Assembly: GCA_016840645.1 (NCBI GenBank)
Contig: JAEORY010000001.1
Coordinates: 1-64,000, forward strand
DNA: 64,000 nucleotides
Direction: 5' to 3'
Origin: Candidatus Borrarchaeota archaeon
Lineage (GTDB): Archaea; Asgardarchaeota; Sifarchaeia; Borrarchaeales; Borrarchaeaceae
Made by a program: the position numbers and the translations under genes. Shown here in pieces: positions 6,711-47,320 of this stretch (its first letter is position 1; every line of letters begins with the position of its first letter). The notes beneath the pieces are model-generated. The model worked only from the letters and a program-made list of their open reading frames with translations. It searched no databases and was not told where the DNA came from.

Positions 6711-6870
6711 ATTCACTATCCGATACCTATACTACGGTGCTTATATGGTACAGGGTAATACAAGCACAAATACCTACGGAAGCAAGCACTATAAGCAACC
6801 AGAAATAAGCCAGATGTTTGAAAAGCTAAAACGGTTAGCTTCATTTAAGAAGGAGCAAAGCAGAAGGTAA
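6673..6870 (+). CDS. Small hypothetical protein
   Basis: 65 residues, preceded by AAAGGAAA. The N-terminal half is beta-rich (IIIDEENGKFTIRYLYYG), the C-terminal half a basic helix (ISQMFEKLKRLASFKKEQ). Lies between clamp and polymerase among the mini-genes. Family not recognised. Confidence 0.55.
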   Translation: MKKSIIIDEENGKFTIRYLYYGAYMVQGNTSTNTYGSKHYKQPEISQMFEKLKRLASFKKEQSRR

Positions 6871-6896
6871 GAAGATCGAAAGGGCTTATATTTTAA

Positions 6897-7046
6897 ATGA
6901 AGATATATGTAGCCGGTTTCCTTGCAAATGCAAAAGATAATCTATCCAAGCATTTCTTATTCAATCAAAAGAAAACAAACCGGATGATGTCATATTACGA
7001 TATAAAAGAAAACCGTTCCTACTCAAAAGATGAATTTAAGATATAG
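6897..7046 (+). CDS. MKIYxAG mini-protein 4
   Basis: 49 residues: MKIYVAGFLANAKDN, then RMMSYYDIKENRSYSKDEF. It most closely preserves the order seen at the start of DpdA-like proteins (KIYxAG, then SYYDI), and stops where the LFLDxGA motif would be expected. Not reported by simple length cut-offs. Function unknown. Confidence 0.5.
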   Translation: MKIYVAGFLANAKDNLSKHFLFNQKKTNRMMSYYDIKENRSYSKDEFKI

Positions 7047-14282: not shown

Positions 14283-14789
14283 ATGACTGAATTTAATTAT
14301 GATGAAGATACCGCCATTGACCCTGATCAATTATTGGAAGAGTGGTTAGGATTACCGGCATCATTTTATGACTACTCAGCAGCTCTATCAGAGAAAGAAA
14401 AAGAGGTTAAGCAGTGCTGGGAGATGCTGAAAACAATTAGGTCTGAGCTTATACTAAAGGCTAAGACTGAAGAAGGTCTTAATAATCCTAAAGCAACCGC
14501 TGGGGAGGTGGAGGCCTACTACCGAACCCAACCAGAGTATATAAAAGCAAAGGATGACTTCATTAACATTGAATATGAAAGGGATATGATTCAGAACGCA
14601 GTCAATGCCTTTTATAGAAAAGAGAAGGCATTGGGGGCGATCACTAACCTACATAAAATGGAATGGTGGAGAGGGCCGAAAGAACCACTTGAACTCCCAT
14701 CTGGTAAAAGAATTAAAAATCGTTTAAAGAAACCAAAATCTTCCGTCGAAGGCCGTAGGGAGATGAACAAAAGAAGAAGAAGGAGATAG
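14283..14789 (+). CDS. Hypothetical helical protein, possible recombination mediator
   Basis: 168 residues with a strong ribosome binding site (GGAAGGAG). An N-terminal acidic part is followed by a long helical region (about 35-120: SEKEKEVKQCWEMLKTIR ... RDMIQNAVNAFYRKEKALG) and a basic tail ending MNKRRRRR. Position directly before the gp32-like SSB and RecA-like genes, plus helical make-up and size, suggest a UvsY-like recombination mediator, but I see no diagnostic motif. Treat the function as a guess from context. Confidence 0.6.
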   Translation: MTEFNYDEDTAIDPDQLLEEWLGLPASFYDYSAALSEKEKEVKQCWEMLKTIRSELILKAKTEEGLNNPKATAGEVEAYYRTQPEYIKAKDDFINIEYERDMIQNAVNAFYRKEKALGAITNLHKMEWWRGPKEPLELPSGKRIKNRLKKPKSSVEGRREMNKRRRRR

Positions 14790-14790
14790 T

Positions 14791-16023
14791 ATGGACCCAA
14801 GAGAGAAAATGAAACAAAGAAGCCGTAGGGCAAGAGAAAATCGTGATAAACGATTTGGCGGCAAAGCAAAGTACAGCGTCCTTGATCTTGATGCTATGTG
14901 CAGGGATTTCGGTTGGGATGAAGTTCCCTGGTATCAAGTAACTGCTGGTGCCACAAAGAATGAAATTGATATCATCATGTTCATCATCACCCAGGAATGG
15001 TATGCGAAATTGAGAGCATACGATGGCACCCCAACTGGCCTTAATCCTGGCGATTGGGATTATAAATTTGAAATCCCTGTCCATCAGAGATGGGGAGGTA
15101 ATAACTCAATCCCTCTTTTCTGCCGTAATGAGGGCATAGGAGGGAGGTGCCCAATCTGTGAAGATCGGCAGGCGGAATGGGATAAAGGCAAAGGTAAATC
15201 CGATAAAGCTGTGTTGCAAGCGCTTGGGGCAAGTTGGCGATGCTTTTATAACACCTATGATTATACCAATGAAAAGTATCGGCCTTGGGAAGTCGCCTAC
15301 AAGAGCTTCGAGGAGATGATGCAGGAGGAGCTTGATATCATCGAAAAAGAAACAGGAGAAGACCTGATACCCTGGGATCTCTCAGATGGCAGGACAATCG
15401 AATTTAAAGGGAGAGTCAAACAGATTGGCGAAACTGAATATAATGAACCTCAGATTCCCGCCTTCTTACCCCGTGATCCATATGAGGAGGAAATCCTCAA
15501 GGATATGATTTCATTTGATAAGTATCTCAAAATTCCGTCATATGAAGAAGTTTGCAGAATCTACTACGGTGTTGACGATGAACCAATCGAGGTCAGTGAA
15601 CAGAAAGAAGAAGAAAGTCAGCCTGCTGATACCGAAACCAGAACGAGAAGAAGACCGACAAGGGAACGATCATCAGAACCCGAAACTGATACCCGCCGCA
15701 GAGGCAGACGATCTGCTGATACTGGTACAAAGGTAGCGGCAGAAACAGATCAAGCTCCAGATGATAGCCGCTGTTCATTTGGTCATAACTTTGGCCATGA
15801 CTGCAATAAGAAACCTGAATGTTCAGATGAATGCCCTGAGGATCAATTTGATGCCTGTATTGACGAGCAGGATAGGATCTTGAAAGGAGAAGCAGAACCT
15901 GAAGAAGAAACCAGAAGTCCAAGGGAACGGCAGCGAGCAAGAGGCGGCGACGAACAGCCAAAAACACGGGAGAGGAAAGCTGATCAAAAAAGTGATACAA
16001 CCCGCCGCCGCCGTAAGAGATAA
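14791..16023 (+). CDS. gp32-like single-stranded DNA-binding protein
   Basis: 410 residues. The core resembles T4 gp32: VHQRWGGNNSIPLFC and GGRCPICED give the zinc pattern H-x12-C-x8-C-x2-C (T4: H-x12-C-x9-C-x2-C). The N-terminal basic segment (KMKQRSRRARENRDKR) matches the cooperativity domain of gp32. The C-terminal 130 residues form a long acidic/arginine-rich linker plus a second Cys cluster (CSFGHNFGHDCNKKPEC... ECPEDQFDAC), an addition not present in T4 gp32. It coats single strands during replication and recombination. It starts 2 nt after the preceding stop. Confidence 0.8.
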   Translation: MDPREKMKQRSRRARENRDKRFGGKAKYSVLDLDAMCRDFGWDEVPWYQVTAGATKNEIDIIMFIITQEWYAKLRAYDGTPTGLNPGDWDYKFEIPVHQRWGGNNSIPLFCRNEGIGGRCPICEDRQAEWDKGKGKSDKAVLQALGASWRCFYNTYDYTNEKYRPWEVAYKSFEEMMQEELDIIEKETGEDLIPWDLSDGRTIEFKGRVKQIGETEYNEPQIPAFLPRDPYEEEILKDMISFDKYLKIPSYEEVCRIYYGVDDEPIEVSEQKEEESQPADTETRTRRRPTRERSSEPETDTRRRGRRSADTGTKVAAETDQAPDDSRCSFGHNFGHDCNKKPECSDECPEDQFDACIDEQDRILKGEAEPEEETRSPRERQRARGGDEQPKTRERKADQKSDTTRRRRKR

Positions 16024-16026
16024 GCG

Positions 16027-16293
16027 ATGCAGAATCCAAACCTAATACATACAAAGGAAGCAATGGAGATTGTCGAACAGCTATTTCGACCTATCACGCT
16101 CCCAACCATCATAAAATGGTGCCGTCAGTACCATATAGGGCTTAAGATTGGTGGGAGGTGGTATGTCGATAAAGAACTGCTAACGACACTCCTGACAAAA
16201 GGAAATCAGAAATGGCGCAACGTAGGCGACGTAGGACGACCGAGCAAGTCTCAATTGCCGATCAGTTCAAACAAACCTCAGAAAAAAGAATAA
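16027..16293 (+). CDS. Small helix-turn-helix DNA-binding protein
   Basis: 88 residues. The first 60 read as an excisionase/MerR-like winged helix: LIHTKEAMEIVEQ, LPTIIKWCRQYHIGLKIGG and RWYVDKELL, the usual helix-turn-helix plus wing wording. The C-terminal part overlaps the recombinase gene by 82 nt in another frame. It could be a regulator of the recombination genes or a directionality factor; no integrase is present in this window. Confidence 0.65.
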   Translation: MQNPNLIHTKEAMEIVEQLFRPITLPTIIKWCRQYHIGLKIGGRWYVDKELLTTLLTKGNQKWRNVGDVGRPSKSQLPISSNKPQKKE

Positions 16294-17360
16294 TCGAACC
16301 GAGGAAGATTGACCCTGATAAGCTGATCCCCTCTGGATTGACATTGCTTAATTGTCATTGTTCTGGAACTCCCACAGGGGCTTATGGGTTGGGTAAAATC
16401 ACCACTGTCCCTGGTGGGAGTAGTTCGGGAAAAACAATATTCTTGCTGACAACCTTTGCCGAATCCAATCTCCTTAGCCGTCTTGATGGCTATGACTTCA
16501 TTTATGATGATGTTGAGGAGGCTCTTGAATTCGATCTCTCTTATCTATTTGGACCAGATACGGCAAGCAGAATAAAAGCCCCTAATTATGATGGCAACGA
16601 ACCAGTTTATTCTGATACGATTCAAGACCTTGAATCAAATATATTAAGAAGGTGTAAGGATAAATCCTGCAAACCATTTTTATACGTCTGTGATAGCCTT
16701 GATGCACTAACATCAGAGGAAGAACTGGAAAGGGAATATAAGAATGCCCTAAAAAGAATTGTCTCAGATGAGCATCTTGAGGCGGTTAAACAGAGTTATC
16801 AAACGGAGAAGGCAAAAATAATTGGCCGCACCCTCCGTATGATTAAAAGAGAGCTGAAGAAAACAAACTCATCACTTATCTTGATTCAGCAGATAAGAGA
16901 TAAGATAGGGGTAGCATACGGAAAGAAAACGACCACAAGTGGAGGTCGAGCGCCTTTCTTCTATAGCTCTCACCAGATATGGTTATCCAAGATTAAGCCA
17001 ATTAAGAACAAGGATATAAAAATCGGTACACAGGTTCATGTAGAGATAACAAAGAATAAGCTAAATGGGAAAGAAAGAGAAATCGATTATGCCAATATTT
17101 ATTATGATTACGGAATAGATGATATTGAAAGCTGCGTAAGGTTTCTCTGTGAGGAATGGTGGCCGAATGCAAAAGACGAAAAAGGAAAGATCAAAAAGGG
17201 TACTTGGTATGCGGTAGAGTTAGGCTGGGAAGGCAGTAGAGCTTCCCTTATTGATAAAATCGAAAGCGAAGATGCCATAAAAGAAGTCAGAGAATTGGTT
17301 GGAAAAGCATGGCATCAAAAAGAAGAATCTGTAAGGCTGAATAGAAAGAGAAGATTTTAA
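16212..17360 (+). CDS. uvsX: RecA/UvsX-like recombinase
   Basis: 382 residues. ATP-dependent strand-exchange protein by motif: Walker A GGSSSGKT (68-75), FIYDDVEEAL as the catalytic glutamate region, FLYVCDSLDAL as Walker B (about residue 157-167), and SLILIQQIRDKIGV plus SGGRAPFFYSS in the L1/L2 DNA-binding region. The basic N terminus RRRRRTTEQ and a length like T4 UvsX (391) favour UvsX over bacterial RecA. It sits between SSB and the resolvase gene. It overlaps the upstream small gene by 82 nt; the start is supported by the first ATG followed by a basic N terminus. Confidence 0.85.
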   Translation: MAQRRRRRTTEQVSIADQFKQTSEKRIIEPRKIDPDKLIPSGLTLLNCHCSGTPTGAYGLGKITTVPGGSSSGKTIFLLTTFAESNLLSRLDGYDFIYDDVEEALEFDLSYLFGPDTASRIKAPNYDGNEPVYSDTIQDLESNILRRCKDKSCKPFLYVCDSLDALTSEEELEREYKNALKRIVSDEHLEAVKQSYQTEKAKIIGRTLRMIKRELKKTNSSLILIQQIRDKIGVAYGKKTTTSGGRAPFFYSSHQIWLSKIKPIKNKDIKIGTQVHVEITKNKLNGKEREIDYANIYYDYGIDDIESCVRFLCEEWWPNAKDEKGKIKKGTWYAVELGWEGSRASLIDKIESEDAIKEVRELVGKAWHQKEESVRLNRKRRF

Positions 17361-17440
17361 GTTAATACTAAGGTATTACTTAGATAGAGATCGTTTAATC
17401 TCAGCTAAATGAGAGCTGTTAAAATTAAAATTTAAAGGTT
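17361..17440 (+). repeat. Structured intergenic element, copy A
   Basis: An 80-nt element that begins at the stop codon of the recombinase and ends 8 nt before the resolvase ATG. It is almost identical to the reverse complement of 40766-40844, and related to 47246-47320 and 34049-34112. In RNA sense it folds as three hairpins: TAATAC-TAAG-GTATTA (extended by TAAG/CTTA), GAGAT-CGTTTA-ATCTC, and CAGCT-AAATGAG-AGCTG. The third stem is compensated in copy C (CGGCT/AGCCG). Confidence 0.8.
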
Positions 17441-24197: not shown

Positions 24198-25184
24198 ATG
24201 CCAAAAGATAGATATTCAGCAGTGATTATAGGAGCAGGATCTATTGGGGCTTTAAAGCCTGACAAATATGACAGCCCTAATACCGAAAATATCCTTACCC
24301 ATGCTCATGCTATCTATAATAATCCAGAAACTGAACTGATAGCTATTGTTGATAACGATATTGATAAAGCGAATAAGGCAGCAGATAAATGGAGTTGTAA
24401 ACCTCTATATGATCTACAAGATGCGCCTTTTCTTTATGGATCAGATATATATGTTGTAGCTACTCCAACCCATACTCATAAAAGAATTCTTGAAAGTGTT
24501 CTTACACTCAAACCAAAGATAGTAATCGCTGAAAAGCCATTTACGAGAGGGTTTATTGAAGCAAAGATGGTATCGGATTTATATGAGAAAAATAATATTC
24601 CATTAGTGGTGAATTATTCAAGGCGATTTACTTTTGAATATGGACAAATTAAAGAAATGATTGACAGTGAAAAATGGGGCAAAGTATTGAATTGCAACTT
24701 TTACTATAACCGAGGATTAAAACATGAAGGATGCCATGCTATCGACCTCTTTAATTATTTCTTTGGAGAGTTGATTGATGGAAACATAATACTTGATAAT
24801 TCAATATGTGACTACTCACAATTTGATCCAACATATGCAGCATTCTTCACATATCAAAAATGCCCCTATATATTTATGTTTCCAGTCGATGGTAGGAAGA
24901 TATCAATATTTGAGATGAATATCATGTTTGAAAAAGCCAGGGTTAGCTTCGTCGATCATGGTACAAAATTAAATATATATGAGCTAACAACTGAAGAGAT
25001 ATATGATAATACCAAGGTGCTTTCAAGCACTCCAACAAAAACAATCAACACACAACTTACCAAATCACTTTCATGTCTTATTGATAACACTGTTAATTAT
25101 CTTGATGGAAATATGGACTTCTTATTATGCACAGATAAAGATGCAATAGAAGTCCATGAAGTCTATTACGCAATAGGTCTTTAA
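24198..25184 (+). CDS. Gfo/Idh/MocA family oxidoreductase
   Basis: 328 residues. Rossmann motif VIIGAGSIGALKPD, then VVATPTHTHKRIL and AEKPFTRGF, the EKP motif of the family. Catalytic-type His/Asp lie in HEGCHAIDLFNYFFGE (about 175-190). NAD(P)-dependent sugar oxidoreductase; the exact step in the nonulosonic block is unclear, since the classical pseudaminic acid route has no such enzyme. It may tailor the sugar, as PtmF/legionaminic gene sets do. Confidence 0.8.
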   Translation: MPKDRYSAVIIGAGSIGALKPDKYDSPNTENILTHAHAIYNNPETELIAIVDNDIDKANKAADKWSCKPLYDLQDAPFLYGSDIYVVATPTHTHKRILESVLTLKPKIVIAEKPFTRGFIEAKMVSDLYEKNNIPLVVNYSRRFTFEYGQIKEMIDSEKWGKVLNCNFYYNRGLKHEGCHAIDLFNYFFGELIDGNIILDNSICDYSQFDPTYAAFFTYQKCPYIFMFPVDGRKISIFEMNIMFEKARVSFVDHGTKLNIYELTTEEIYDNTKVLSSTPTKTINTQLTKSLSCLIDNTVNYLDGNMDFLLCTDKDAIEVHEVYYAIGL

Positions 25185-25200
25185 ATAAGGAGATTAAGAA

Positions 25201-26556
25201 ATGCCAAAACTTGCAATAAAAGGTGGTCTTAAAGTTAGAAATAACCCTTTCCCGAATATGTCAACAATAGGCCAAAGTGAGTTGAATGCAGCGAGAAGGG
25301 TTATATTGACAGGAAATTTATCAGGTTTCAGAGGCAATTCAGGCCCAGGGTTTCAAGGTGGTCCCGAAGTAAGAGCACTTGAAAAGGAATGGGAAAAGAA
25401 ATTTGGAGTTAAACATGCTATCGCCGTCAACTCCTGTACATCGGGGTTGCATATTGCTTGCATAGCCATTGATTTAAAACCAGGTGATGAAGTAATTGTG
25501 ACTCCATGGTCGATGTCATGTAGTGCGACAGCGCCTATGATATGTGGGGCTATTCCAATCTTCGCTGACATTGAAGAGGATTATTATTGCCTTGATCCTC
25601 AATCGATAAGGGATAGAATAAGTGCAAGAACCAAAGCAATTATAGTAGTTGACTTATTTGGGCAGCCACATGATTATTCAGAAATACGAAAAATAGCCGA
25701 CGAATATAGTCTATCTATAATTGAGGATGCTGCACAAGCCATCGGATCATACTACGGTAAAAGAAGTACAGGAACGCTTGGAGATATCGGCGTTTATTCC
25801 TTCACTCAAGGGAAGCATATTACCTGCGGTGAAGGTGGTATGATCGTAACAAATGATGATAAATTAGCGATGTCTTGTATGTTGCTAAGAAATCATGCCG
25901 AGGCGGTTGAAAATGATTTGATTGGTTCAAAACCAAATTATAAAAAATATACTCTCCCTACATTTGATCACAATCTATTTGGATTCAACATGAGAATGAC
26001 AGAGATACAGGCCGCCATACTGAGAGAGCAACTCAAGTATTTAGATGGCGTTGTAGAAAAGCATCAGAAATCAGAACAATTCATAAGTGATAATCTAAGC
26101 CATCTAGATTATATTATCAAGTTTCCTAAAGTCAGACCTTACTCAACACATTCTTATTATGTTCAAGCTTTAAAATGGAGAACTGAAAATAAACATACTG
26201 AAGGAATACACCGCGATCAATATATTGAAGCAGTCAGGGCGGAGTTATCGCATGAAGAAGGTAGAGCTATTGAAGGCGTCCCGATCAGCTACGGATACAT
26301 AAAACCTCTTTACTTATTTCCTATATTCCAAAACTACCAAGATAAGTTAGACATCTATAAAAATGAGTATGAAAAAATCAGAAGGAGGCGTATAAAGGAG
26401 AATTATACACAAGGCAGTTGCCCTGTAGCTGAAAGATTATGGAAGAATGAAATAATTATAAACAGGCTGGTTGGAATGAATCTAATGGTTAGTGATCTTA
26501 AGGATGTCGTTAATGCATTCATTAAGGTTTGGGAGAATAGGGATGAATTAAGGTAA
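25201..26556 (+). CDS. DegT/DnrJ/EryC1/StrS sugar aminotransferase
   Basis: 451 residues. PLP-dependent sugar aminotransferase: AVNSCTSGLHIA binds phosphate, EDAAQAIGSYY contains the family aspartate, and Lys205 in TQGKHITCGEGG forms the Schiff base. Likely performs the PseC/LegC-type transamination of the 4-keto sugar made by the dehydratase at 27581. Carries a longer than usual C terminus. Strong ribosome binding site AAGGAG. Confidence 0.85.
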   Translation: MPKLAIKGGLKVRNNPFPNMSTIGQSELNAARRVILTGNLSGFRGNSGPGFQGGPEVRALEKEWEKKFGVKHAIAVNSCTSGLHIACIAIDLKPGDEVIVTPWSMSCSATAPMICGAIPIFADIEEDYYCLDPQSIRDRISARTKAIIVVDLFGQPHDYSEIRKIADEYSLSIIEDAAQAIGSYYGKRSTGTLGDIGVYSFTQGKHITCGEGGMIVTNDDKLAMSCMLLRNHAEAVENDLIGSKPNYKKYTLPTFDHNLFGFNMRMTEIQAAILREQLKYLDGVVEKHQKSEQFISDNLSHLDYIIKFPKVRPYSTHSYYVQALKWRTENKHTEGIHRDQYIEAVRAELSHEEGRAIEGVPISYGYIKPLYLFPIFQNYQDKLDIYKNEYEKIRRRRIKENYTQGSCPVAERLWKNEIIINRLVGMNLMVSDLKDVVNAFIKVWENRDELR

Positions 26557-26561
26557 GGAAT

Positions 26562-26714
26562 ATGAAAACAAAAAATATAGATAAAATCATTCTTGTAGTT
26601 ATCGGGTTTAATATAGCCGTTAATATACATCAAGGAAATTGGCAGGCGGCGCTTGGATGGTTTATCGCCTCTCTTACTATTATTAGATTGCTTTTCTTTT
26701 ATAAAGAGAAATAA
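26562..26714 (+). CDS. Small membrane protein
   Basis: 50 residues with two short hydrophobic stretches (IILVVIGFNIAV and LGWFIASLTIIRLLFF) and AAGGAA before the ATG. It sits between two sugar genes. Family unknown. Confidence 0.5.
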   Translation: MKTKNIDKIILVVIGFNIAVNIHQGNWQAALGWFIASLTIIRLLFFYKEK

Positions 26715-26736
26715 AAAATTAATAAGGATCAGTAAA

Positions 26737-27597
26737 ATGATACCATTTATAGCAGATATTGGAAGCAACCATAATCAAAGTCTCACAAGGGCTAAAAATC
26801 TTATTTTAGCTGCAAAAGAGAGTGGTTGTTGGGGAGTTAAGTTTCAGCTTTTTAAAGCCGAACAGCTATGGAGAGATAAGACAGTAGCAGGAAGGATGAA
26901 GCATTGGGAATTGCCAGAAGAGTTCATTCCTGAGCTTTCAAGTTTTTGTAAAGCGCTTGATATAGCCTTCGGCTGCACACCTTTCTACTTAAAAGCTGTC
27001 GATATACTCAAAGATCATGTTGACTTTTTAAAGGTTGGTTCATACGAATTACTCTGGCTTGATTTAATCAGGAAGTGTGCAAAAACTGATAAGAAGCTTA
27101 TCCTATCGACTGGCATGGGATCATTTGTTGAGATACTTAATGCAATGTCAGCCGCCATTGTGCATTGTAAATCAGGATGTAATGATGATGATAACGTCTT
27201 AGGTTCTATATCAGTCCTGCATTGTAATTCGACCTATCCTGCCAACCTTGAAGATTGCAATATGGCACAGATAGAAGTGCTTAGAAATCAATTTCGGAGA
27301 TCAGTTGGATGGAGTGATCATACCACTGAGCCAGGGGTAATTTATTCTGCCATTTCATATGGTGCCTCAATAATTGAATTTCATTTGGATTTAGAAGATA
27401 AGCAAGGGGTCGAATCTAGAAGCGGCCATTGCTGGAAACCAAGTAAAATTGAATGTGTTATAAATAATATAAGCAACTGGTTGAAGACTGAATATTTCAG
27501 TAAAACCAGTTTAACACAAAAAATAGAGGAGCTAAGAAAGTCAAGAACTGACCCAACTGATGGAATGAGGCCATTGAAGAATGTCAAATCTACATAA
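26737..27597 (+). CDS. Nonulosonic acid synthase (NeuB/PseI/LegI family)
   Basis: 286 residues from the ATG at 26737, which has AAGGA 9 nt upstream; an earlier in-frame ATG at 26653 would add an unlikely hydrophobic tail. Family motifs: FIADIGSNHNQ, WGVKFQLFKAEQL, LKVGSYELL, LILSTGMGS, VLHCNSTYPA and GWSDHTTEPG. These condense phosphoenolpyruvate with a hexose to give a nine-carbon acid. The C-terminal antifreeze-like (SAF) domain of NeuB is missing, which shortens it by about 60 residues. Overlaps the dehydratase gene by 17 nt. Confidence 0.85.
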   Translation: MIPFIADIGSNHNQSLTRAKNLILAAKESGCWGVKFQLFKAEQLWRDKTVAGRMKHWELPEEFIPELSSFCKALDIAFGCTPFYLKAVDILKDHVDFLKVGSYELLWLDLIRKCAKTDKKLILSTGMGSFVEILNAMSAAIVHCKSGCNDDDNVLGSISVLHCNSTYPANLEDCNMAQIEVLRNQFRRSVGWSDHTTEPGVIYSAISYGASIIEFHLDLEDKQGVESRSGHCWKPSKIECVINNISNWLKTEYFSKTSLTQKIEELRKSRTDPTDGMRPLKNVKST

Positions 27598-28564
27598 TGC
27601 CGAAATATTAATAACAGGCGGGACAGGTAGCCTTGGGCTAACCCTTGTAAAAACCCTTGTAAAATATCATTCAGAAATAAAAGGGATACGAGTCTTTTCA
27701 AGAGACGAACTGAAGCAATGGCTGATGAAGCAGGAGATCAACGTATGGTGTATCAAAAATAAGCTCTATGTGCCGATCTCTTATTTGGTGGGTGATGTAA
27801 GAGATATCAAAAGGCTTAAGATTGCGATGAGAGGGGTCACCCATGTCATCCATGCTGCTGCCATGAAGCAAGTCCCTGCCTGTGAAGAAAACCCTCTTGA
27901 AGCGATTAAGACAAATATAGGCGGTGCAGAGAACATATTAGAAGCCGCTCTTTCATGTGACTCAATCGAGAAGGTTTTAGGCATAAGTACTGATAAGGCA
28001 ATATACCCTATAAATCTCTACGGGGTTACGAAAGCCGCGATGGAAAAGTTATTCATCCAAGGCAACGTTTACAGTAAAGGACATGAGAGAAAACCAAGAT
28101 TCAGTTGCTGCCGATATGGGAACGTTATAGGAAGCAGAGGAAGTGTGATTCCTTTATTTAAAAGTCAATATGATAGAAATCAAGAGATAACCGTTACCGA
28201 TTTGAAAATGACAAGGTTTTGGATTACCCGGCCAGCCGCTGCTCGCTTTGTAATAAATAGATTGATGTATATGGAGGGTGGTGAGATATTCGTCCCTAAA
28301 ATGCCAAGTTGTAGGGTTGTCGATCTTGCCAGAATGCTTATCCCTGATGTCCCTATAAAATATGTAGGGATAAGGAAAGGAGAGAAGATTCATGAATGGC
28401 TGATAACAACTGAGGAGAGCAGCGATTTATTAGAGTTAGGTAAAAGCTATGTAATCTCTTCAAGATATCAAAACAAGCATAAGAAGTTCGCTTATAACAG
28501 CCTTAGTAATGAACGGATTTTGAAAAAAGATGAATTCCATAAAATGTTAATAGAAGAAGTATAG
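27581..28564 (+). CDS. UDP-GlcNAc 4,6-dehydratase (PseB/CapD-like)
   Basis: 327 residues of the extended SDR family: GGTGSLG (13-19) binds NADP, AAAMKQVP and LYGVTKAAME (YxxxK) form the active site as in PseB. RYGNVIGSRGSVIPLF and RKGEKIHEWLI are PseB/FlaA1 wording. It makes the 4-keto-6-deoxy sugar that the DegT aminotransferase uses. Start overlaps the synthase gene. Confidence 0.85.
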   Translation: MSNLHNAEILITGGTGSLGLTLVKTLVKYHSEIKGIRVFSRDELKQWLMKQEINVWCIKNKLYVPISYLVGDVRDIKRLKIAMRGVTHVIHAAAMKQVPACEENPLEAIKTNIGGAENILEAALSCDSIEKVLGISTDKAIYPINLYGVTKAAMEKLFIQGNVYSKGHERKPRFSCCRYGNVIGSRGSVIPLFKSQYDRNQEITVTDLKMTRFWITRPAAARFVINRLMYMEGGEIFVPKMPSCRVVDLARMLIPDVPIKYVGIRKGEKIHEWLITTEESSDLLELGKSYVISSRYQNKHKKFAYNSLSNERILKKDEFHKMLIEEV

Positions 28565-30956: not shown

Positions 30957-31143
30957 ATCATCAAACCAAAATCAAATATTAAACGAGATAGAAGCCATCC
31001 GTTCCTCGAATAATTCTAACTGGATGAGGATTATAAGAATCGCTCTCAAGCATGATAAAGAAGAAACTATAAAACTTCTTAAGAACATAGTTGAAATGGA
31101 CGGAAGAATAAAGTCAGAAATGGAGAAACTAATTAATGAATAG
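30949..31143 (+). CDS. Small hypothetical protein
   Basis: 64 residues, helical, start and stop both overlapping neighbours by 8 nt, so likely coupled to the Maf-like gene. Family unknown. Confidence 0.5.
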   Translation: MNKSSNQNQILNEIEAIRSSNNSNWMRIIRIALKHDKEETIKLLKNIVEMDGRIKSEMEKLINE

Positions 31144-34048
31144 GAAAAGGCTTAGTGTAAATCTAAAATCAATTATGGATATAAACCCATCCTTGTATAG
31201 CTGGATAGATAAGCAGGAAGAGGTTGATTGGGTTAGAGAAATCAAAAGTGATGATGGCCTCCCAAATCTTCTTATTTCAATTGGAAACAAGACAATCGCT
31301 GCATATAAAATGAGGGGTGCGAAGATAGAGGCTTTTCGTGCGGCGAAGAAAATGAAACTTTATAAGGAGAATGTCAGCATATTAATAGGTTTCGGCCTTG
31401 GGTATATGGCAAGGGCGATGCTTGATAAAATGGAGAAAGGGCATCATGTCATAGTCATTGAACCAGTCGGTCATGTGCTGAGACTTGGGCTATCTAATTT
31501 TGACTTCTCAAAAGAGATAAGAAATTTTGAATTAATCATCGTCGAACCAAACCCAAAAGAAATAGCAGCCGCCTTTGGTATACTTGATAATAGTTACATC
31601 GTTAATGATTGGTTGGTAACAATCAATAAGTATACCAAGCTGAGGCCAGATGAATATGGCGAATCAATGAAGTTAGTTCTCGATATCCTGAATCAGATCA
31701 TGTGTTCCATTGGTACGATAGCTGGAGGGGCAGGAGCGAAGATAGCTGATAATGATATTGCTTGTCTTCCTTATGTTATCCGTCATAGAGGAGTAGCTGA
31801 ACTGAAAGATATATTCAAGGATAAACCAGCAATACTTGTCAGCACCGGGCCAAGCCTTGCTAAAAATATTCATCAATTAATCGATATCAGCAAAGAAAAT
31901 AAAGCCGTAATAATTGCAGTTGGACAAGCCCTCAGAATTCTACTCGCCTACGATATTAAACCTGACTTCATCTGCACGGTTGATTTTGGTGAGGTCAACA
32001 TGGGGCATTTTACAGGTCTTATGAATTCAGATGTCCCACTCGTTACAATCAATAGAGCCTATGCTCCTTTACTGAAATCATGGCAAGGGCCAAAGTTCAT
32101 CGTCTCTACTCCGGTGCCAGGGTTTGAGAAAACCGCCGCTGGCATACTAACTAATAAAGGCAGTCTTGAGGCAGGTGGTAGTGTTGCACATCTCTGCTTT
32201 ACATTTGCACAATCACTTGGTTGTGATCCAATAACGTTAATTGGTCAGGATTTGGCTCTATCAAATACATCTCATATTCCCTTGGCTGATGCCTCCGGCA
32301 AAATTCAAATATCGGAGAACGGACAGATAGGTTGGAAGGTAAGCGATCATCGCTGCCATCTTCACAATGAAAAAGATGAAGTTTATGGTATGGGGCCAGT
32401 CCATCAAGTCCCAGGTTACTATGGTAAGCCTGTGATAACAAACCTGGGGCTCGCTTCATTTATAACGAGCTTTGAAGCGATGGCAAGCAAGTGCGAGGCA
32501 AAAGTAATCAATGCAACCGAGGGCGGAGCAGATATCCGCAATACTGAAAAGATGATGCTCAAAGAAGTCATAAATCAATACTGCAAAGAAAAGATCGACA
32601 AAACAGAATTAGAAAAGTTGAAAACTCTTGCTGATGATGGTGATGATCTTATTGAAAAAGTCATCCCCTTACTTGAAAAGGATATTGATAATCTCAATGA
32701 GGTGATAAGTCAAGGTAGAAAAGGGCTGGCAAGCGCAAGAGGATTAGCGACACTTATGAGTCGTAATAATTATAAAGCTCTTCTTAACAAAAAAAATAAG
32801 GTATTCCTAAACAAACTATTAAAAGAAAGTAAGAGTGAGTCAGAAGTCGATAGAATAAATATGAATATAATATTCTTTGAGAAATTAGTTAATCAGTTAA
32901 GAAAATCAAAATTAAAGAATATAGTCCTTCTAACTCAGAAAAATTTCGTGCATTCAGAAAATACGAGGATAGCAGCGACAAAGAATCCTCTTGTCAACGT
33001 CGCCATATATGGAGCGAGTAGAAGAATATGGCAAAGGAAGCTTAAGGTTAATGAAAAGTTCGAGCACTTTTTAACCAATAGAAAAGATGCAATGACAAGG
33101 CTTGAAAGGAATAAATTAATCTTAAATGCCGCCGTCAGTGCTGCAAAAGAACTAAAGCCTACATATAAGAAAACCCTAAAGCTGCTTAAGAAATATAATA
33201 AGAAAAAAGATGATAGTTTGCTGGTTGATAGAACACCCGAACTAATGGACCTCAGTGATGCAGATAGTTATTTTGATGCTGATAACTGGGCACATCCATT
33301 GGTTGACGCGAAGAGATGTATTGATAAAATGCTGTTACTATCCAATGCCAAGCCATCAATATGTAACAAACCATTTGATGAAGTGAAGGCAATCTATAAA
33401 AAAGCTCTCACTATGAGAGAAGAAGCGATAGAGAAAGCAAAAAAAGAAGAGTATGATAATTGGGAAGAAAGAAAGAAAATTCTTGAATATAATCGCCTGA
33501 TAAAAGAAAGTAGAGAAGCTGGTAAGAATGATCAAGACTTTAGCAAAGCAGTTGAGATCCTTGAGGAGGCGAAAGAATTATTTCCAGATAATCCTGAAGC
33601 TAAGTGGGGCTTAGCCACTGCCCTACATCATTCGGGTCGATTTGATGAATCATTATCTATGTATCGAGAACTGATAAAGGAATCGCCTGATAATAACAGA
33701 TACAAATTTGAGATGGGCCAGGTGCTACTTAAGACGGGGCAAACAAAGGAGGGATTAGATACATTGAAAGAGGCGATGGAATCAACCAGCGAATTCGATG
33801 GTGCCCTGGCAAATATTGGACAGATATATGAACACGCTGGAATGAATAAAGATGCCCTTAGAGCTTATAATCTTTACCTGAAAAAGTTCCCAGCGGACTA
33901 TGAAGTCTTGAATATGAAAGCAGTATGCCTTTCGAAGTTGAAGAGATATGGGCAGGCCATTAAAGTATTAAAAGCCTGTCTGAAAATAAAGCCGGATTTT
34001 AAGCAGGCAAAAGAAAACTTGCAAGTATTAAAGCGGCGTGGAATATAG
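31136..34048 (+). CDS. Maf-type (MAF_flag10/DUF115) glycosyltransferase with C-terminal TPRs
   Basis: 970 residues. Residues about 1-470 match motility accessory factor (Maf) proteins: VSILIGFGLGYMARAML, ILVSTGPSLAKNIHQL, the GGSVAHLCFTFAQSLGCD segment and ITLIGQDLALS, and INATEGGADI. Maf enzymes transfer pseudaminic or legionaminic acid from CMP-sugar onto serine/threonine of flagellin. A 300-residue coiled/helical middle part follows, then about 800-970 carry tetratricopeptide repeats (WGLATALHHSGRFDESLSMY, and similar). The upstream genes make a CMP-nonulosonic acid, so this is the natural final transferase. Its target may be host flagellin or the phage's own Ser-rich proteins. Starts 8 nt inside the preceding gene. 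Confidence 0.8.
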   Translation: MNRKRLSVNLKSIMDINPSLYSWIDKQEEVDWVREIKSDDGLPNLLISIGNKTIAAYKMRGAKIEAFRAAKKMKLYKENVSILIGFGLGYMARAMLDKMEKGHHVIVIEPVGHVLRLGLSNFDFSKEIRNFELIIVEPNPKEIAAAFGILDNSYIVNDWLVTINKYTKLRPDEYGESMKLVLDILNQIMCSIGTIAGGAGAKIADNDIACLPYVIRHRGVAELKDIFKDKPAILVSTGPSLAKNIHQLIDISKENKAVIIAVGQALRILLAYDIKPDFICTVDFGEVNMGHFTGLMNSDVPLVTINRAYAPLLKSWQGPKFIVSTPVPGFEKTAAGILTNKGSLEAGGSVAHLCFTFAQSLGCDPITLIGQDLALSNTSHIPLADASGKIQISENGQIGWKVSDHRCHLHNEKDEVYGMGPVHQVPGYYGKPVITNLGLASFITSFEAMASKCEAKVINATEGGADIRNTEKMMLKEVINQYCKEKIDKTELEKLKTLADDGDDLIEKVIPLLEKDIDNLNEVISQGRKGLASARGLATLMSRNNYKALLNKKNKVFLNKLLKESKSESEVDRINMNIIFFEKLVNQLRKSKLKNIVLLTQKNFVHSENTRIAATKNPLVNVAIYGASRRIWQRKLKVNEKFEHFLTNRKDAMTRLERNKLILNAAVSAAKELKPTYKKTLKLLKKYNKKKDDSLLVDRTPELMDLSDADSYFDADNWAHPLVDAKRCIDKMLLLSNAKPSICNKPFDEVKAIYKKALTMREEAIEKAKKEEYDNWEERKKILEYNRLIKESREAGKNDQDFSKAVEILEEAKELFPDNPEAKWGLATALHHSGRFDESLSMYRELIKESPDNNRYKFEMGQVLLKTGQTKEGLDTLKEAMESTSEFDGALANIGQIYEHAGMNKDALRAYNLYLKKFPADYEVLNMKAVCLSKLKRYGQAIKVLKACLKIKPDFKQAKENLQVLKRRGI

Positions 34049-34112
34049 CTTAAAACGCTGTCATTTAGCCGAGATTAGGTTTTCTTTTTAAATTAATACC
34101 TAAGTATATTCT
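34049..34112 (-). repeat. Structured intergenic element, diverged copy D
   Basis: Shares CATTTAGCCGAGATTA and ATTAATAC-TAAG-TAT with copy C (47246-47320). It lies right after the stop of the Maf-like gene but in the opposite direction to it, and is the least conserved of the four copies. Confidence 0.55.
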
Positions 34113-34134
34113 TAATAAAAAAATCGCGTGATCG

Positions 34135-34147
34135 CTTATAATATAAT
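34135..34147 (+). promoter_or_regulatory. Candidate promoter of the TIGR-like array
   Basis: Third copy of CTTATAATATA, followed by AT so that two TATAAT boxes overlap (34137-34142 and 34142-34147). It abuts the first (degenerate) repeat of array 1 and points toward it, so array and downstream gene could be transcribed from here. No good -35 box. Confidence 0.45.
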
Positions 34148-34440
34148 AAAAAAGTCACTCGATATAAGAAACCCACAAAGTGGAAGCGAGCCATGGGTTT
34201 TAAGAAACCCACCATCATCAAGCGAGCCACCAGCCGCAAGAAATCCAAGAAGTAAAAGCGAGCCATGAGGTCGAAGAAACCCAGAACCGTAAAGCGAGCC
34301 AATCCAAAAAAGAAAACCAGAAAAGTTAAGCGAGCCAACGGTTTAAAGAAACCCATATCCGCCAAGCGAGCCATGATGCGTAAGAAACCCACAGGTAAAA
34401 AGCGAGTCAAAAAGCCGAAGAAACCCAAGAAAGCTAAGCG
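34148..34440 (+). repeat. TIGR-like dual-repeat array 1
   Basis: Strictly periodic array: AAGCGAGCCA, 8 variable nt, AAGAAACCCA, 8 variable nt, repeated every 36 nt. AAGCGAGCCA type repeats lie at 34184, 34220, 34256, 34292, 34328, 34364, 34400 (AAGCGAGTCA), with a degenerate first copy at 34148 and a truncated AAGCG at 34436. AAGAAACCCA type repeats lie at 34166, 34202, 34238, 34274, 34310, 34346, 34382 and 34418, with one-base variants at 34238 and 34310. All 16 spacers differ (for example TGGGTTTT/CCATCATC, CCAGCCGC/AGAAGTAA). Known TIGR arrays have this layout: edge repeat, spacer A, loop repeat, spacer B, giving 36-nt dual-spacer guide RNAs. Direction assumed from the neighbouring gene and the TATAAT box. 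Confidence 0.85.
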
Positions 34441-34470
34441 TTAACTAACTACAAAAAAGGAATGTAACCA

Positions 34471-35397
34471 ATGAAAAAAGAAATCAAAAGAATGGCAAGA
34501 AAAAGAACAGATGAGGTATTCCCTGAAAACGATTCACTATTTGATACTCATAGGTTAATACCGAAAAGAAAAAATGGCACATACACGGATGAAAATACGG
34601 TAATCAAAATGCCGATTGATCATCAAATTGAGCATGGGACATTTAAGCAGAGAGAAAGTGAATTTGAAAAATTAAAAAGCCTATTTGATGATAGACAAAG
34701 TTTAATGAAGTCACGGATGAAAATAGATAATGCACTACTGGCATATAAAAGGGGAACAGATGTTCCTACGATTGAAATGATAAAATTTTATGAAGAGAAA
34801 ATCAAAGAATTTGTGAAGTTTGAAAATAAGAGAAAAGGGGAAATCGAAAAGCAGCTAGAAAAAATAAACCATCCTGTCGCAAACGCCATGAGGGAGGTCG
34901 ATCAGGTTGGTCCGGTTATCGCAGCAGGTTGTATTATTTATTTAGACATTAAAAAAGCACGCCATCCGAGTAGTTTTTGGAAATATTGTGGATTGGATAA
35001 ACCATTTTTTAGTAGGTATGAAAAAGGCAAGTCCAGCGGGGGCAATAAAAAATTAAGAACTGTTTTATATAATATGGCAAAATGTCAGGAAATGTGTTTA
35101 ACGGCACCTTATAGACCAGTATACGATAATAAAAAACAAAAACTTGCGCAAAGTGAAAAAATCTGCGAGCAGACAAGAGGTACGGATGGGAAGATTAAAA
35201 AAAATGTAAAGTGGAAAGATGTAAAGCCATGTCATCGTCGAGGTGCAGCATTACGAGAAGTTATGAAACATTTCTTAGCGGATTTACACTATGTATGGTG
35301 CTGTATTGAGGGGATTGAGCCTTCGAAGCCATATGCCGAAGCACAACTTGGAAAACATAAAACTATTATGCCAGAAGAAAGAGGGTGGATTTTTTAA
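34471..35397 (+). CDS. Tas-like protein (Nop/IS110 C-terminal-like, no nuclease domain)
   Basis: 308 residues. Residues 57-135 are a long charged coiled coil. Residues 138-276 match the C-terminal (Transposase_20) fold of IS110-type recombinases, also related to the Nop domain of box C/D RNPs: VDQVGPVIAAGCI helix-hairpin-helix, SSFWKYCGL, SGGNKKLRTVLYNMA, and HRRGAALREVMKHFLADLHY. There is no RuvC-like DEDD domain at the N terminus and no HNH, so it is not a complete IS110 transposase. Two arrays flank it directly, 30 nt upstream and 3 nt downstream. This matches TasA, the nuclease-less TIGR-associated protein type. Expected role: bind array RNAs and recognise DNA by the two spacers. Possible start also at an inner ATG (34492). 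Confidence 0.75.
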   Translation: MKKEIKRMARKRTDEVFPENDSLFDTHRLIPKRKNGTYTDENTVIKMPIDHQIEHGTFKQRESEFEKLKSLFDDRQSLMKSRMKIDNALLAYKRGTDVPTIEMIKFYEEKIKEFVKFENKRKGEIEKQLEKINHPVANAMREVDQVGPVIAAGCIIYLDIKKARHPSSFWKYCGLDKPFFSRYEKGKSSGGNKKLRTVLYNMAKCQEMCLTAPYRPVYDNKKQKLAQSEKICEQTRGTDGKIKKNVKWKDVKPCHRRGAALREVMKHFLADLHYVWCCIEGIEPSKPYAEAQLGKHKTIMPEERGWIF

Positions 35398-35400
35398 TTA

Positions 35401-35626
35401 AAGCGAGCCATCCTATCTAAGAAATCCAAAAGCATAAAGCGAGCCACCAGCATCAAGAAACCCATGATGCAGAAGCGAGCCATTGACCGCAAGAAACCCA
35501 GGAAGTAAAAGCGAGCCATGTTTATCAAGAAACCCAGTATCGAGAAGCGAGCCATCTGATTGAAGAAACCCATTAAGTTTAAGCGAGCCAGCGCTGTTAA
35601 GAAACCCAGAAGGTAAAAGCGAGTTA
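35401..35626 (+). repeat. TIGR-like dual-repeat array 2
   Basis: Same repeats and 36-nt period as array 1, starting 3 nt after the Tas-like stop codon. AAGCGAGCCA at 35401, 35437, 35473, 35509, 35545, 35581, and a degenerate AAGCGAGTTA at 35617; AAGAAACCCA type at 35419 (AAGAAATCCA), 35455, 35491, 35527, 35563, 35599. Twelve complete spacers plus one terminal, all different from each other and from array 1 (for example TCCTATCT/AAAGCATA, TGTTTATC/GTATCGAG). The end lies 9 nt before the stop of the convergent tail gene at 35636. The degenerate last repeat marks the array end as in CRISPR arrays. Confidence 0.85.
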
Positions 35627-35635
35627 TCAAATATT

Positions 35636-36124
35636 TTAAGCACCACCTGAGTTATCAACACTCGCATCAACAAAACCAATTAAACGCCAATTGGTTCCAC
35701 CGTCACAGACCCATTGTGTTACATCTCCCGAAGCGGTAGTAATATCAACCGAGCTACCATAGAGATTAGTACCTGTCGTATCAAAGACAATCGCCGCCTT
35801 TGATATGACAGTTATTATCTTCCCATCCTCTCCATCATCAAAGTCTGTAATTGTAAGCCCTGAGGTCCCAGTTCTGAAAACATTATAACCTGCAACACTT
35901 GGGGTTGCATCTGTAGCTCCAAAGGTGGCCACACCAGGCTTTAAAGCACTCAGCAGTTGATCCTGGCTGTCGGTGGCAGCAGTCTTCAGTGTTATCCCGG
36001 CATCCTCTATTACATTGGCTATTTCCTCTTGAATAGCATTAAGCCAATTCTGCTCTATCGTTGTCCCAGGTGGACCGTCCGTAAACGAATTTGATGAGTG
36101 ATTCTCACCTTCTGTTCTATGCAT
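35636..36124 (-). CDS. Tail fibre-like protein (short)
   Basis: 162 residues. It opens MHRTEGENHSSNSFTDGPPG then WLNAIQEEIANVIEDAG, closely like the first 50 residues of the next gene's product (MHRIEGADY..., WLNAIQEEIVSLILNSG). This shared part is probably the virion-attachment module of tail fibres. The rest is beta-rich (VFDTTGTNLYGSSVDITTAS), resembling the C-terminal glycine/threonine-rich sandwich seen in distal tail proteins. Last gene of the minus-strand structural block, ending 10 nt from array 2. Confidence 0.65.
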   Translation of the reverse strand: MHRTEGENHSSNSFTDGPPGTTIEQNWLNAIQEEIANVIEDAGITLKTAATDSQDQLLSALKPGVATFGATDATPSVAGYNVFRTGTSGLTITDFDDGEDGKIITVISKAAIVFDTTGTNLYGSSVDITTASGDVTQWVCDGGTNWRLIGFVDASVDNSGGA

Positions 36125-36126
36125 TT

Positions 36127-38247
36127 TTAACCCTCAAGATTGCTATTTGTATCATCATAATTATTGGAAGCAGCCTGCAGCACAACCCCTGTATTAGACA
36201 TACTTTCACAGGTATTGCCTATCGCTGAAGTATAACTACAATAGGAACCGTTGATGCCATAGGTGCCATTTTTTAACGTATTTCCGACAAGGCTGAAAAA
36301 GCTCAACCCACCTGCATCAATTGATTGCAGCAGGATATTATCTGAAAGATCATCATCCCTTTCACACATATTTCCTGACACCGTACCATGCTTTATCGTT
36401 ACACCAGTCAAGCAATAGATCCATATACATCTTGTATTTGCCGCTGATACTCCCTTTATAGTATTATTATCAACTTTAACCATACTCATATTCGCCCTTG
36501 GTGCATAGACGAATATCCCATGAGTACCAGGATCTTCAATATAATTACCAGTTATCTGAATCCCTTCAAACGGTGTATCATTATTATATATGGTTTCTTG
36601 TGATACATAGATAGCCGCATTCCCAGCCGTACCACATCTGATAACTTTATTATCTTTTATATGAGAAAAAGATGGAAGATCGCCATTATAGACAATAGGC
36701 CTATGATCTATACCTTCCAATTCAGTCCCAATTACAGTATTGCCAGTTATGGTTGCATTGACGCCACTATACCTTATCCCTCTTTGTATAGTTCCATCAC
36801 TATTGCCTGACTGAATAAAGTTATCAGTGATGCTTATATGATCCGCCATTGCATGAGTTTCCATTCCATAATCTCTACAGGCACGAATTGTATTCTTATG
36901 AAATGTAATAAACCTACTCGGCATCAAGCTAGATCCAGCATCAGTTCCAGTCCTATAATATTCAACATGATTATGGGCTACCAATCCATTTGCACAGCCG
37001 CCGACTTGAATCCCATAACCATTAGCTGCCGGGGAATTACCAGTGAAGGTATTGCTTTCAATCTTAAAATTAATTGTTCGATAGAGACCAATTCCATTTG
37101 TTTCAAAATCGTTAAATACACAATCTTTTATTCTAACATTCTTCGCCCATTGGGTTATAATACCATATTGGCTACCACCACTACCCGAACCAGTCGCCGT
37201 CACACCTCTGATGAATATATTTTCTTTCAGAGACATAACATCTATCTTAGCACTATCAACGGTATAGTAGGCATAGAGCAAAGTATCGCCAAGATCGACA
37301 CTCGCTGCGTTGACGTTTCTAATATAAACCCACTCGCCATTATAGGTACTATTCTGCTGATCCCATATCTCATCATCTCTAACAACTGTCCAATCTCCAG
37401 CGGTGAAGAAGCCCGCCGCCCCTGCGACTGGAATATTATCAGCTCCAGCTAAGACATTTGATGTTAGTGCCTGTGCAGCACCTTGTGATCCTAAGACATG
37501 AAATAGATAATCACCATTTGGTGCATTGGAGAAATCTATCGTCCCGCCATACCCTTCAAATGTAATATTATTATTAAGGGTAAGGGTGGCATCAGCTCTA
37601 AAGTCTCTATGATTAGCATCTAAAATTCCACCACCAACCATCGATGTGAGAGCATTATTAATGGCGGTCTCACTGTCGGTTGCTGCTGATGGGTCAGCAC
37701 CAAACCATTCAGGGAATAGCCTCCCTTTATTAGTAAAGGTAATGCTATCAGCGATAGTGCTGCCGAATACTTGCTGATTCGTTGGAGCTAAAATCTGAGC
37801 AGGATTATCAAATGTAAGCGTTCCAGTTCCTCCGAATACAGCTCCCCTTTGAGGTTTAATCGAAACATTACTTGGAACCACTGCAGCAGTATTGACAGTG
37901 TAGGTTGTACCAGCCCCTGAGTTGACCAATACAATAGTCGCCTTATCAACACCTGCCTCATCTATGCAATCCTTCAGTGTTTTCAAGCTACCTGTTGCAA
38001 CTACCCCTTGATCTCCTTCAGATGCATCGGCATACAAATACTTACCAACCAGGACCGATGATATAAGCTGATCTCTTGATTCGGTTGCTTCAGTCTTAAG
38101 AGCCTGACCGGAATTCAATATGAGAGATACAATTTCTTCTTGGATTGCATTCAACCACTCATGAGTTACAACGGTCCCAGGTGGGCCTGTTTGAAATAGC
38201 TTTACACCATCGACCTCATTATAATCTGCGCCTTCAATTCTATGCAT
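36127..38247 (-). CDS. Tailspike with right-handed beta-helix
   Basis: 706 residues. N-terminal attachment module (1-60) shared with the previous entry. Residues about 170-700 form pectate-lyase-like coils: FPEWFGADPSAATDSETAIN is the usual entry of phage tailspike helices, then many parallel-strand repeats (IRDCVFNDFETNGIGLYRTI-like, IESNTFTGNSPAANGYG, ITGNYIEDPGTHGIFVY, GNTLKNGTYGINGSY). Such tailspikes bind and often hydrolyse host polysaccharide; catalytic residues cannot be assigned by eye. Two nucleotides separate it from the neighbour. Confidence 0.8.
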   Translation of the reverse strand: MHRIEGADYNEVDGVKLFQTGPPGTVVTHEWLNAIQEEIVSLILNSGQALKTEATESRDQLISSVLVGKYLYADASEGDQGVVATGSLKTLKDCIDEAGVDKATIVLVNSGAGTTYTVNTAAVVPSNVSIKPQRGAVFGGTGTLTFDNPAQILAPTNQQVFGSTIADSITFTNKGRLFPEWFGADPSAATDSETAINNALTSMVGGGILDANHRDFRADATLTLNNNITFEGYGGTIDFSNAPNGDYLFHVLGSQGAAQALTSNVLAGADNIPVAGAAGFFTAGDWTVVRDDEIWDQQNSTYNGEWVYIRNVNAASVDLGDTLLYAYYTVDSAKIDVMSLKENIFIRGVTATGSGSGGSQYGIITQWAKNVRIKDCVFNDFETNGIGLYRTINFKIESNTFTGNSPAANGYGIQVGGCANGLVAHNHVEYYRTGTDAGSSLMPSRFITFHKNTIRACRDYGMETHAMADHISITDNFIQSGNSDGTIQRGIRYSGVNATITGNTVIGTELEGIDHRPIVYNGDLPSFSHIKDNKVIRCGTAGNAAIYVSQETIYNNDTPFEGIQITGNYIEDPGTHGIFVYAPRANMSMVKVDNNTIKGVSAANTRCIWIYCLTGVTIKHGTVSGNMCERDDDLSDNILLQSIDAGGLSFFSLVGNTLKNGTYGINGSYCSYTSAIGNTCESMSNTGVVLQAASNNYDDTNSNLEG

Positions 38248-40765: not shown

Positions 40766-40844
40766 AACCTTTAAATTTTAATTTTAACAGCTCTCATTTA
40801 GCCTATATTAAACGATCTCTATCTAAGTAATACCTTAGTATTAC
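40766..40844 (-). repeat. Structured intergenic element, copy B
   Basis: On the minus strand this 79-nt segment is nearly identical to copy A (17361-17440), including GTAATAC-TAAG-GTATTAC, TTAGATAGAGATCGTTTAAT and GCTAAATGAGAGCTG. It begins 2 nt after the stop of the gp46-like gene and ends 6 nt before the ATG of the baseplate J gene. It is thus placed between a stop and the next start, exactly as in copy A. Confidence 0.8.
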
Positions 40845-47222: not shown

Positions 47223-47245
47223 CTTCGCGTTGTCTCACTCTGCTT

Positions 47246-47320
47246 TAAAAATCGATTTTAACGGCTCTCATTTAGCCGAGATTAAACGATCTTTTTGAAT
47301 TAATACTAAGATATTACCTA
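47246..47320 (-). repeat. Structured intergenic element, copy C
   Basis: Minus-strand element starting at the sheath stop codon: TAATA-TCTTAG-TATTA, GAT-CGTTTA-ATC, CGGCT-AAATGAG-AGCCG. Relative to copy A the third stem changes A-U to G-C, a compensatory change that keeps pairing. It sits directly before the terminator-like hairpin. Confidence 0.75.

Follow-up and report, generated by a model that had tools for sequence, protein, structure and literature searches.

Between positions 34,148 and 35,626 of a 64,000-nucleotide (nt) stretch of DNA filed under Candidatus Borrarchaeota archaeon (contig JAEORY010000001.1; the whole stretch is called the window here), two arrays of short repeats flank a single gene. 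A preliminary description, made from the sequence alone, took this for a phage-borne TIGR-Tas locus with a tasA-type effector. TIGR-Tas systems were described in 2025 (PMC12045711), and the window raises the question of which Tas protein the gene encodes and what DNA its guides might be directed against. We consider it highly probable that the locus is a TIGR-TasH system carried by a phage: a gene for an HNH-Nop protein, likely an RNA-guided DNA nuclease, stands between two dual-repeat arrays.

Two arrays around an HNH-Nop gene

Read in an 18-nt register, both arrays alternate two 10-nt repeats separated by 8-nt spacers, with a period of exactly 36 nt. The 18-nt spacing is exact and the alternation strict from the repeat at 34166 to that at 34418 and from 35401 to 35617, and each repeat keeps 8-10 of the 10 letters of its consensus. 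Because truncated edge repeats bound the arrays by the published rule (PMC12045711), AAGCGAGCCA was taken as the edge repeat and AAGAAACCCA as the loop repeat. The left array (34148-34440, + strand) has eight units, each running edge, spacer A, loop, spacer B; a degenerate 5' edge at 34148-34157 (AAAAAAGTCA) precedes 15 repeats, the spacers number 16, and a 3'-truncated edge, AAGCG, closes the array at 34436-34440. The right array (35401-35626, + strand) has six units, with 13 repeats and 12 complete spacers; it opens with a complete, untruncated edge 3 nt past the tas stop codon, and its last edge is degenerate (AAGCGAGTTA). No two of the 28 spacers are identical and, with spacer A after each edge and spacer B after each loop, they predict 14 guide RNAs. 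This reading bears out the repeats, spacers and period given in the preliminary description, whose array and gene coordinates are also correct; the degenerate end repeats that it reported lie at the left 5' edge and the right last edge.

With up to two mismatches allowed per repeat, the edge-8-loop pattern occurs 13 times on the + strand of the window, always within the two arrays, and never on the - strand; 20 mononucleotide shuffles of the window yielded one occurrence in total. Published TIGR-Tas repeats are 8-12 nt long and the spacers mostly 9 nt, and the arrays typically start and finish with truncated edge repeats (PMC12045711). Both window arrays have this form, with two alternating repeats in that size range, short spacers, an adjoining tas gene and truncated edges at their ends, the exception being the full first edge of the right array. 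Arrays and gene lie tightly packed on one strand. A CRISPR-Cas array, with one repeat of about 25-36 nt and spacers of similar size, is ruled out by the two 10-nt repeats and 8-nt spacers.

The gene between the arrays, tasH (34471-35397, + strand), encodes 308 residues comprising an HNH domain, a coiled coil and a Nop/IS110 C-terminal-like domain; AAGGA at 34457-34461 (+ strand), noted by eye, may be its ribosome-binding site. The profile search and structure prediction proposed in the preliminary description placed the protein above the cut-off of the NCBI model TIGR_Tas_endo (NF052498, match at residues 69-276) and predicted a Nop/IS110-like fold. The predicted model matches a TasH-guide-DNA structure along its whole length. 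Its Nop/IS110 C-terminal-like RNA-binding domain (about residues 135-304; 34873-35382, + strand) includes a PF02371 match at residues 140-205 and has Foldseek and VIA-align matches to TasH, TasR and IS621, and the long coiled-coil helices of the model (residues 63-132; 34657-34866, + strand) overlap the NF052498 match. Ahead of them, conserved residues, alignment and model all mark an HNH nuclease domain at about residues 22-58 (34534-34644, + strand). Residues D25, H27, R28, N42, H51 and H55 are those conserved across the family (of 121 aligned proteins, 53% have D and 45% have H at position 27), and the strand-strand-helix core of HNH is present in the model.

As residues 22-58 or so form an HNH nuclease domain, the effector is, on sequence and predicted structure, TasH and not TasA. 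Alignment to SpTasH and to TasH in the Protein Data Bank (PDB) indicates the N-terminal HNH nuclease fused to Nop that defines TasH; TasA, a solo Nop protein with no nuclease domain, was rejected on the same domain. The tasA-type label therefore falls, while the Nop/IS110-C-like protein proposed between the arrays is upheld by profile, structure model and alignment. Whether the locus has an effector besides Tas, a point the preliminary description had left open, is largely answered: the nuclease domain is fused within Tas itself.

SpTIGR/TasH of Salicola phage CGphi29 (HQ634153.1; PDB 9w04, 9vzx, 21kl and others) likewise has an N-terminal HNH, a coiled coil and Nop. The two proteins are 41% identical over 294 alignment columns, and the loci share the edge repeat AAGCGAGCCA, the 36-nt period and 8-nt spacers; the published spacer content of SpTIGR is 16 nt in all, that is, 8 + 8 (PMC12045711). 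They differ in layout (an array on both sides in the window, downstream only in CGphi29), in the commonest loop (AAGAAACCCA against AAGACAACCA) and at HNH position 27, which is H in the window and D in the tested Salicola protein. No other open reading frame (ORF) of the window had a match in the 12.9 kb of CGphi29 compared. The literature matches listed comprised the 2025 Science paper, a review and some passing or unrelated mentions, with no paper on the TasH structures among them. TIGR-TasR (PDB 9mty) carries RuvC where the window has HNH, and its repeats start with UG and its spacers are 9 nt (PMC12045711), against AAG and 8 nt here. The TIGR-TasA-like protein of Microcystis phage Mvi-JY20 shares the Nop core (29.5% identity) and a 36-nt dual-repeat array, but its 241-residue coding sequence has no apparent nuclease domain. 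In that phage (PP438412.1, our locus L003) the array, at 6680-7010, adjoins this solo-Nop-looking 'hypothetical protein'. Compared with the IS110/IS621 bridge-RNA recombinases, the window protein has HNH in place of a DEDD/RuvC-type N-terminus, and its arrays hold many guides. Nop5/Prp31 of the box C/D snoRNPs have a different RNA, act on RNA and lack the HNH present in the window's TasH.

TasH loci and their spacers across virus contigs

A scan of IMG/VR by the family alignment yielded 43 loci, which became 37 once the window and CGphi29 were added and 8 near-identical copies removed. Two TasH loci from a later repeat-pattern search (L074 and L081) stand outside this set, and L001 was left out of the counts as its 36-nt period proved on reading to be coding repeats. 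A 36-nt array adjoins tasH in all 37 loci, on both sides in at least 20, downstream only in 15 and upstream only in 2; the first number is a lower bound, the contig ending 7, 383 and 585 nt upstream of tas in L050, L017 and L030. The preliminary description had suggested that the array-tas-array order could mean insertion of tas into one array. Since that layout is common, and in many of the 20 both-sided loci the arrays bear truncated end repeats of their own, the family argues against a recent split of an array by tas.

Units were parsed with fixed repeat templates, which took C or T at edge position 4 and A or G at position 7 but did not require their pairing; the 571 units so obtained include some chains in L039 and L042 with poor repeats, possibly spurious. 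Edge repeats vary between AAGCGAGCCA and AAGTGAATCA types, and positions 4 and 7 mostly stay paired: among 456 repeats they are C-G in 248, U-A in 117 and U-G in 29, against C-A in 15, U-U in 20 and others in 27. This pattern agrees with the TIGR edge-repeat pairing given in PMC12045711.

The window's exact repeat pair recurs in IMG/VR in 27 stretches on 23 contigs. A Tas match lies near 18 of them, TasH in several; the DNA around each of the other 9, some of which are separate pieces of those contigs, showed no Tas match. By eye, the pair also stands beside solo-Nop-looking Tas proteins (L067 and L072) and, in L082, beside a Tas whose HNH-like N-terminus contains cysteine; L065 and L069 are listed with these three among the loci using it beside other Tas. 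As the same repeats accompany TasH and solo-Nop-looking Tas, the repeats alone cannot separate TasH from TasA. A pattern scan of the GTDB r220 species genomes, strict enough to leave absence unproven, found no TasH in cellular genomes.

Spacer origin, array expansion and targets are posed as questions in PMC12045711, and pairs of related phages let spacer change be read directly. The tas genes of L014 and L018 are 92.2% identical and the 300 nt past the array 95.0%, but spacers alike at 7 of 8 letters number only 14 of 32, a share that is in truth slightly higher, since the L014 parse overruns the array by two units and shifts one shared unit. The shared units keep their order, interspersed with unit runs of differing content and, at times, differing number; in one unit spacer A is common to both phages but spacer B is not. 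In L044 and L050 the longer flanks are 93-94% identical, the stretches adjoining the array 85-89%; the repeats are the same and none of 8 downstream spacers is in common, possibly through a whole-segment swap. In both pairs the spacers have diverged far more than the surrounding genes. L028 and L029, which are near-identical copies, differ by one letter in one unit. Two further pairs, L067/L069 and L072/L073, were aligned but kept out of the turnover counts, L067 and L069 being also read by eye.

Near-identical units occur beyond the mispaired expectation. Among 432 units, 7 pairs were alike at 14 or more of 16 letters (mean 0.5, maximum 3 in 200 mispaired sets) and 8 at 13 or more (mean 2.1, maximum 6), while the 17 pairs at 12 or more fell within the control (mean 10.5, maximum 20). 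Because most of these near-identical pairs sit within one array (6 of the 8 at 13 or more letters, the other 2 being between L014 and L018), the sequences suggest that TIGR units may duplicate and then diverge. The window's locus is a TIGR-TasH of an already known type; what makes it useful is the correction of the effector class, together with the family's data on spacer change. With TasH and 36-nt arrays on many uncultivated virus contigs in the 37-locus set, array evolution and natural targets become testable by sampling such phages.

Proposed mechanism, targets and role

How might such a locus work? Array anatomy, gene identity, predicted fold and matches, kept HNH residues and close packing on one strand are observed directly, and the following steps are modelled on published Salicola phage TasH and archaeal TasR. 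The arrays would be transcribed as one or a few transcripts, and cutting of their RNA within the edge repeats would release 14 guides, each 36 nt long. A guide would program a TasH dimer to open a 16-bp site, where its two spacers, A and B, would pair with opposite DNA strands, and HNH would then cut both strands. The target would read A and then the reverse complement of B, with a gap of 0-2 bp. This order is our own reading, chosen because only it gives 3' overhangs under the published cut geometry (8-nt 3' overhangs, 'C - 5' rule); on that geometry, two published sentences disagree about the side of the fifth base at which the cut falls (PMC12045711). By our arithmetic, that rule with 8-nt spacers would leave 6-nt 3' overhangs.

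Words spanning the A/reverse-complement-B junction bear on this order. Window units 3 and 11 have an 11-letter core in common there (CCGC before the junction, TTACTTC after it), and among 471 units 8 pairs share a 12-letter junction word; 20 mispaired controls averaged 1.05 such pairs, with at most 3 in any one, and the three other joins gave 2-4. At 9 and 10 letters, the reverse complement of A followed by B gave 69 and 26, against 63 and 24 for the proposed order. The proposed order is thus favoured at 11-12 letters only, with inherited or duplicated units contributing, and we regard this as suggestive only.

Target searches were run with arrays masked, units read in this order, and other joins or mispaired sets as controls. 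In 0.68 Mb of phage DNA, 433 units gave 1 exact and 7 one-mismatch matches at gap 0, 0 and 14 at gap 1, and 1 and 17 at gap 2; in four controls at gap 0 the counts were 0-1 for exact and 11-18 for one-mismatch matches. Extending the search to 1.65 Mb, including relatives found via the capsid protein, gave 2 exact and 36 one-mismatch matches against 0-2 and 21-35 in six controls (three join, three mispaired), so that the one-mismatch count lies just over every control but not clearly above them. The window's own 14 units had no one-mismatch match there at gap 0 and 2 over gaps 0-2, both at gap 2. Within the 64-kb window, no match with 0-1 mismatch and gap 0-1 occurs outside the arrays. One of the two gap-2 matches is a self match of unit 9 (TCCTATCT/AAAGCATA) in the window at 18681 (- strand), with one mismatch, which could be chance. 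The window's portal gene has one exact match (58605) to a unit of L040, which is about the chance expectation. A unit 3 match in the DnaE gene of L057 was dropped: the encoded protein is only 25% identical to the window's, and no other tested window ORF had a match in the L057 DNA compared. Some of the exact 16-mer stretches in IMG/VR represent a single site recurring across related contigs, and no unit 3 locus has a matched ORF in common with any unit 11 locus. The spacer-pair search proposed in the preliminary description thus found no natural target clearly above controls in the searched phage and IMG/VR DNA.

Could the locus be something else? A period divisible by 3, open antisense frames at 34093-34428 and 35413-35679 (both - strand) and the coding repeats of L001 would suit arrays that are repetitive protein-coding sequence, but spacer variation affects every codon position whereas the repeats are fixed, the antisense frames of the right array match relatives within their array stretches, and truncated end repeats with edge-repeat pairing are what a TIGR RNA predicts; we give this reading next to no weight. 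A remnant of an IS110-family transposase that happens to lie next to unrelated tandem repeats, to which the PF02371 match and the best PHROGs match (phrog_4285, named 'transposase') might point, is refuted by an N-terminus that aligns with the HNH part of TasH, by a score of 22.6 bits against a cut-off of 140 for the IS110 model NF033542 while TIGR_Tas_endo passes, and by arrays in 37 of 37 TasH loci, and is scarcely conceivable. Less remote, yet very unlikely, is a TasA-like binder with an inactive HNH, in which guide-loaded TasH would bend or block DNA for gene control or to block integration or replication. H in place of the Salicola D at position 27, and the solo-Nop-looking Tas proteins of L067 and L072 (by eye) with the same repeats, speak for such a binder, whereas D25, R28, N42, H51 and H55 are all kept, H27 is itself common in the family, the model has the strand-strand-helix core, and the window offers no paired site outside its arrays at the stringency given above.

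The role of a cutting TasH is less certain. Related phages keep the repeats and the protein but have different guides, and on that ground TasH would attack changing DNA inside its host, most likely that of other phages or of plasmids; these guide differences, together with a published plasmid-loss result (PMC12045711), suggest competition between mobile elements. With rather more doubt than confidence, we propose that TIGR-TasH arrays may be a fast-changing phage guide memory, whose units, and at times half-units, are duplicated, mutated, swapped or lost anywhere, leaving relatives with unlike guide sets on unchanged repeats and nuclease, and which serves as a weapon against rival DNA in a shared host. 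Guides might instead be aimed at the host chromosome, for takeover or degradation. Nucleases acting on host chromosome DNA are common in lytic phages, but differing guides in related phages are less expected for conserved host sites, although host switching could explain them; we think chromosomal targeting unlikely.

Several results weigh against the TasH reading or its parts. The window's 14 units found no exact match at gaps 0-2 in the 1.65 Mb of phage DNA, and exact IMG/VR 16-mers for units 3, 11 and 4 (the 3 of 14 units scanned) numbered 9, 5 and 5 against 10 for a mispaired control. Fast change has to be squared with copies 99.8-100% identical across records, which keep their spacers almost entirely, so that turnover is visible only between more distant relatives. 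A role in competition stays conjectural, as TasR in published E. coli tests gave no protection from phage or conjugation (PMC12045711). As for expression, TATAAT-like -10 element(s) at 34137-34147 (+ strand), noted by eye as a possible array promoter, were not listed by a promoter scan, which makes the promoter a guess. A rho-independent terminator 3' of the array is described as typical for TIGR-Tas (PMC12045711); a simple scan of the + strand over 33700-36300 showed no intrinsic terminator after either array.

Phage context and neighbouring features

The nearest of the virus records compared, G001, agrees with the window at 99.996% of positions over 12233-62293 and is identical across 3,924 bases around the locus. 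A contig of 97,962 bases is the longest to carry this tas protein, so that the window covers only part of the phage genome. Its - strand carries tail sheath, baseplate, tape measure, portal, protease and capsid genes, its + strand a DnaE-type polymerase, a clamp loader and UvsX-like and Sbc-like proteins, and these genes mark a contractile-tailed phage. Together with the Tas profile and fold matches, they sustain the phage-borne TIGR-Tas locus of the preliminary description. Distant relatives (L010, L022, L023, L044 and L017) have replication genes in common, with TasH among them, whereas in the window TasH has a Maf-like gene on one side and the tail genes on the other; the TIGR-TasH locus, or the genes around it, therefore appear to have moved.

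The phage also carries a pseudaminic/nonulosonic acid cassette at 24198-28564 and 31136-34048, with a PseB-like protein (TIGR03589, E 6.5e-108, under the curated cut-off), PseC/LegC-like and NeuB/PseI-like proteins, a GFO/IDH oxidoreductase and a TPR-repeat Maf/PseD-like protein whose gene immediately precedes the left array. Judging by these genes, it possibly glycosylates phage or host surface proteins. Near the portal gene, ORFs of 705 and 673 residues (59177-61294 and 61298-63319, both - strand) consist largely of poly-serine tracts of the SSSSSSE type and have no Pfam match. At 7371-9554, a helicase has a DNA methyltransferase-like C-terminal part.

A 78-bp intergenic element lies at 17363-17440 (+ strand), 40766-40843 (-), 47243-47306 (-) and, weakly, 34057-34107 (-), the further copies being 96%, 83% (65 columns) and 77% (53 columns) identical. 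The first three stand just upstream of an ORF in their own orientation and the last beside the left TIGR array, and the element is possibly regulatory. On the phage contig L010, a second TIGR-like locus (14505-16459) has TGAAATCTA/TGCGAGCTA repeats and 9-nt spacers; its repeats flank a 381-residue frame with, by eye, a RuvC-like-looking N-terminus and a Nop-like C-terminus.
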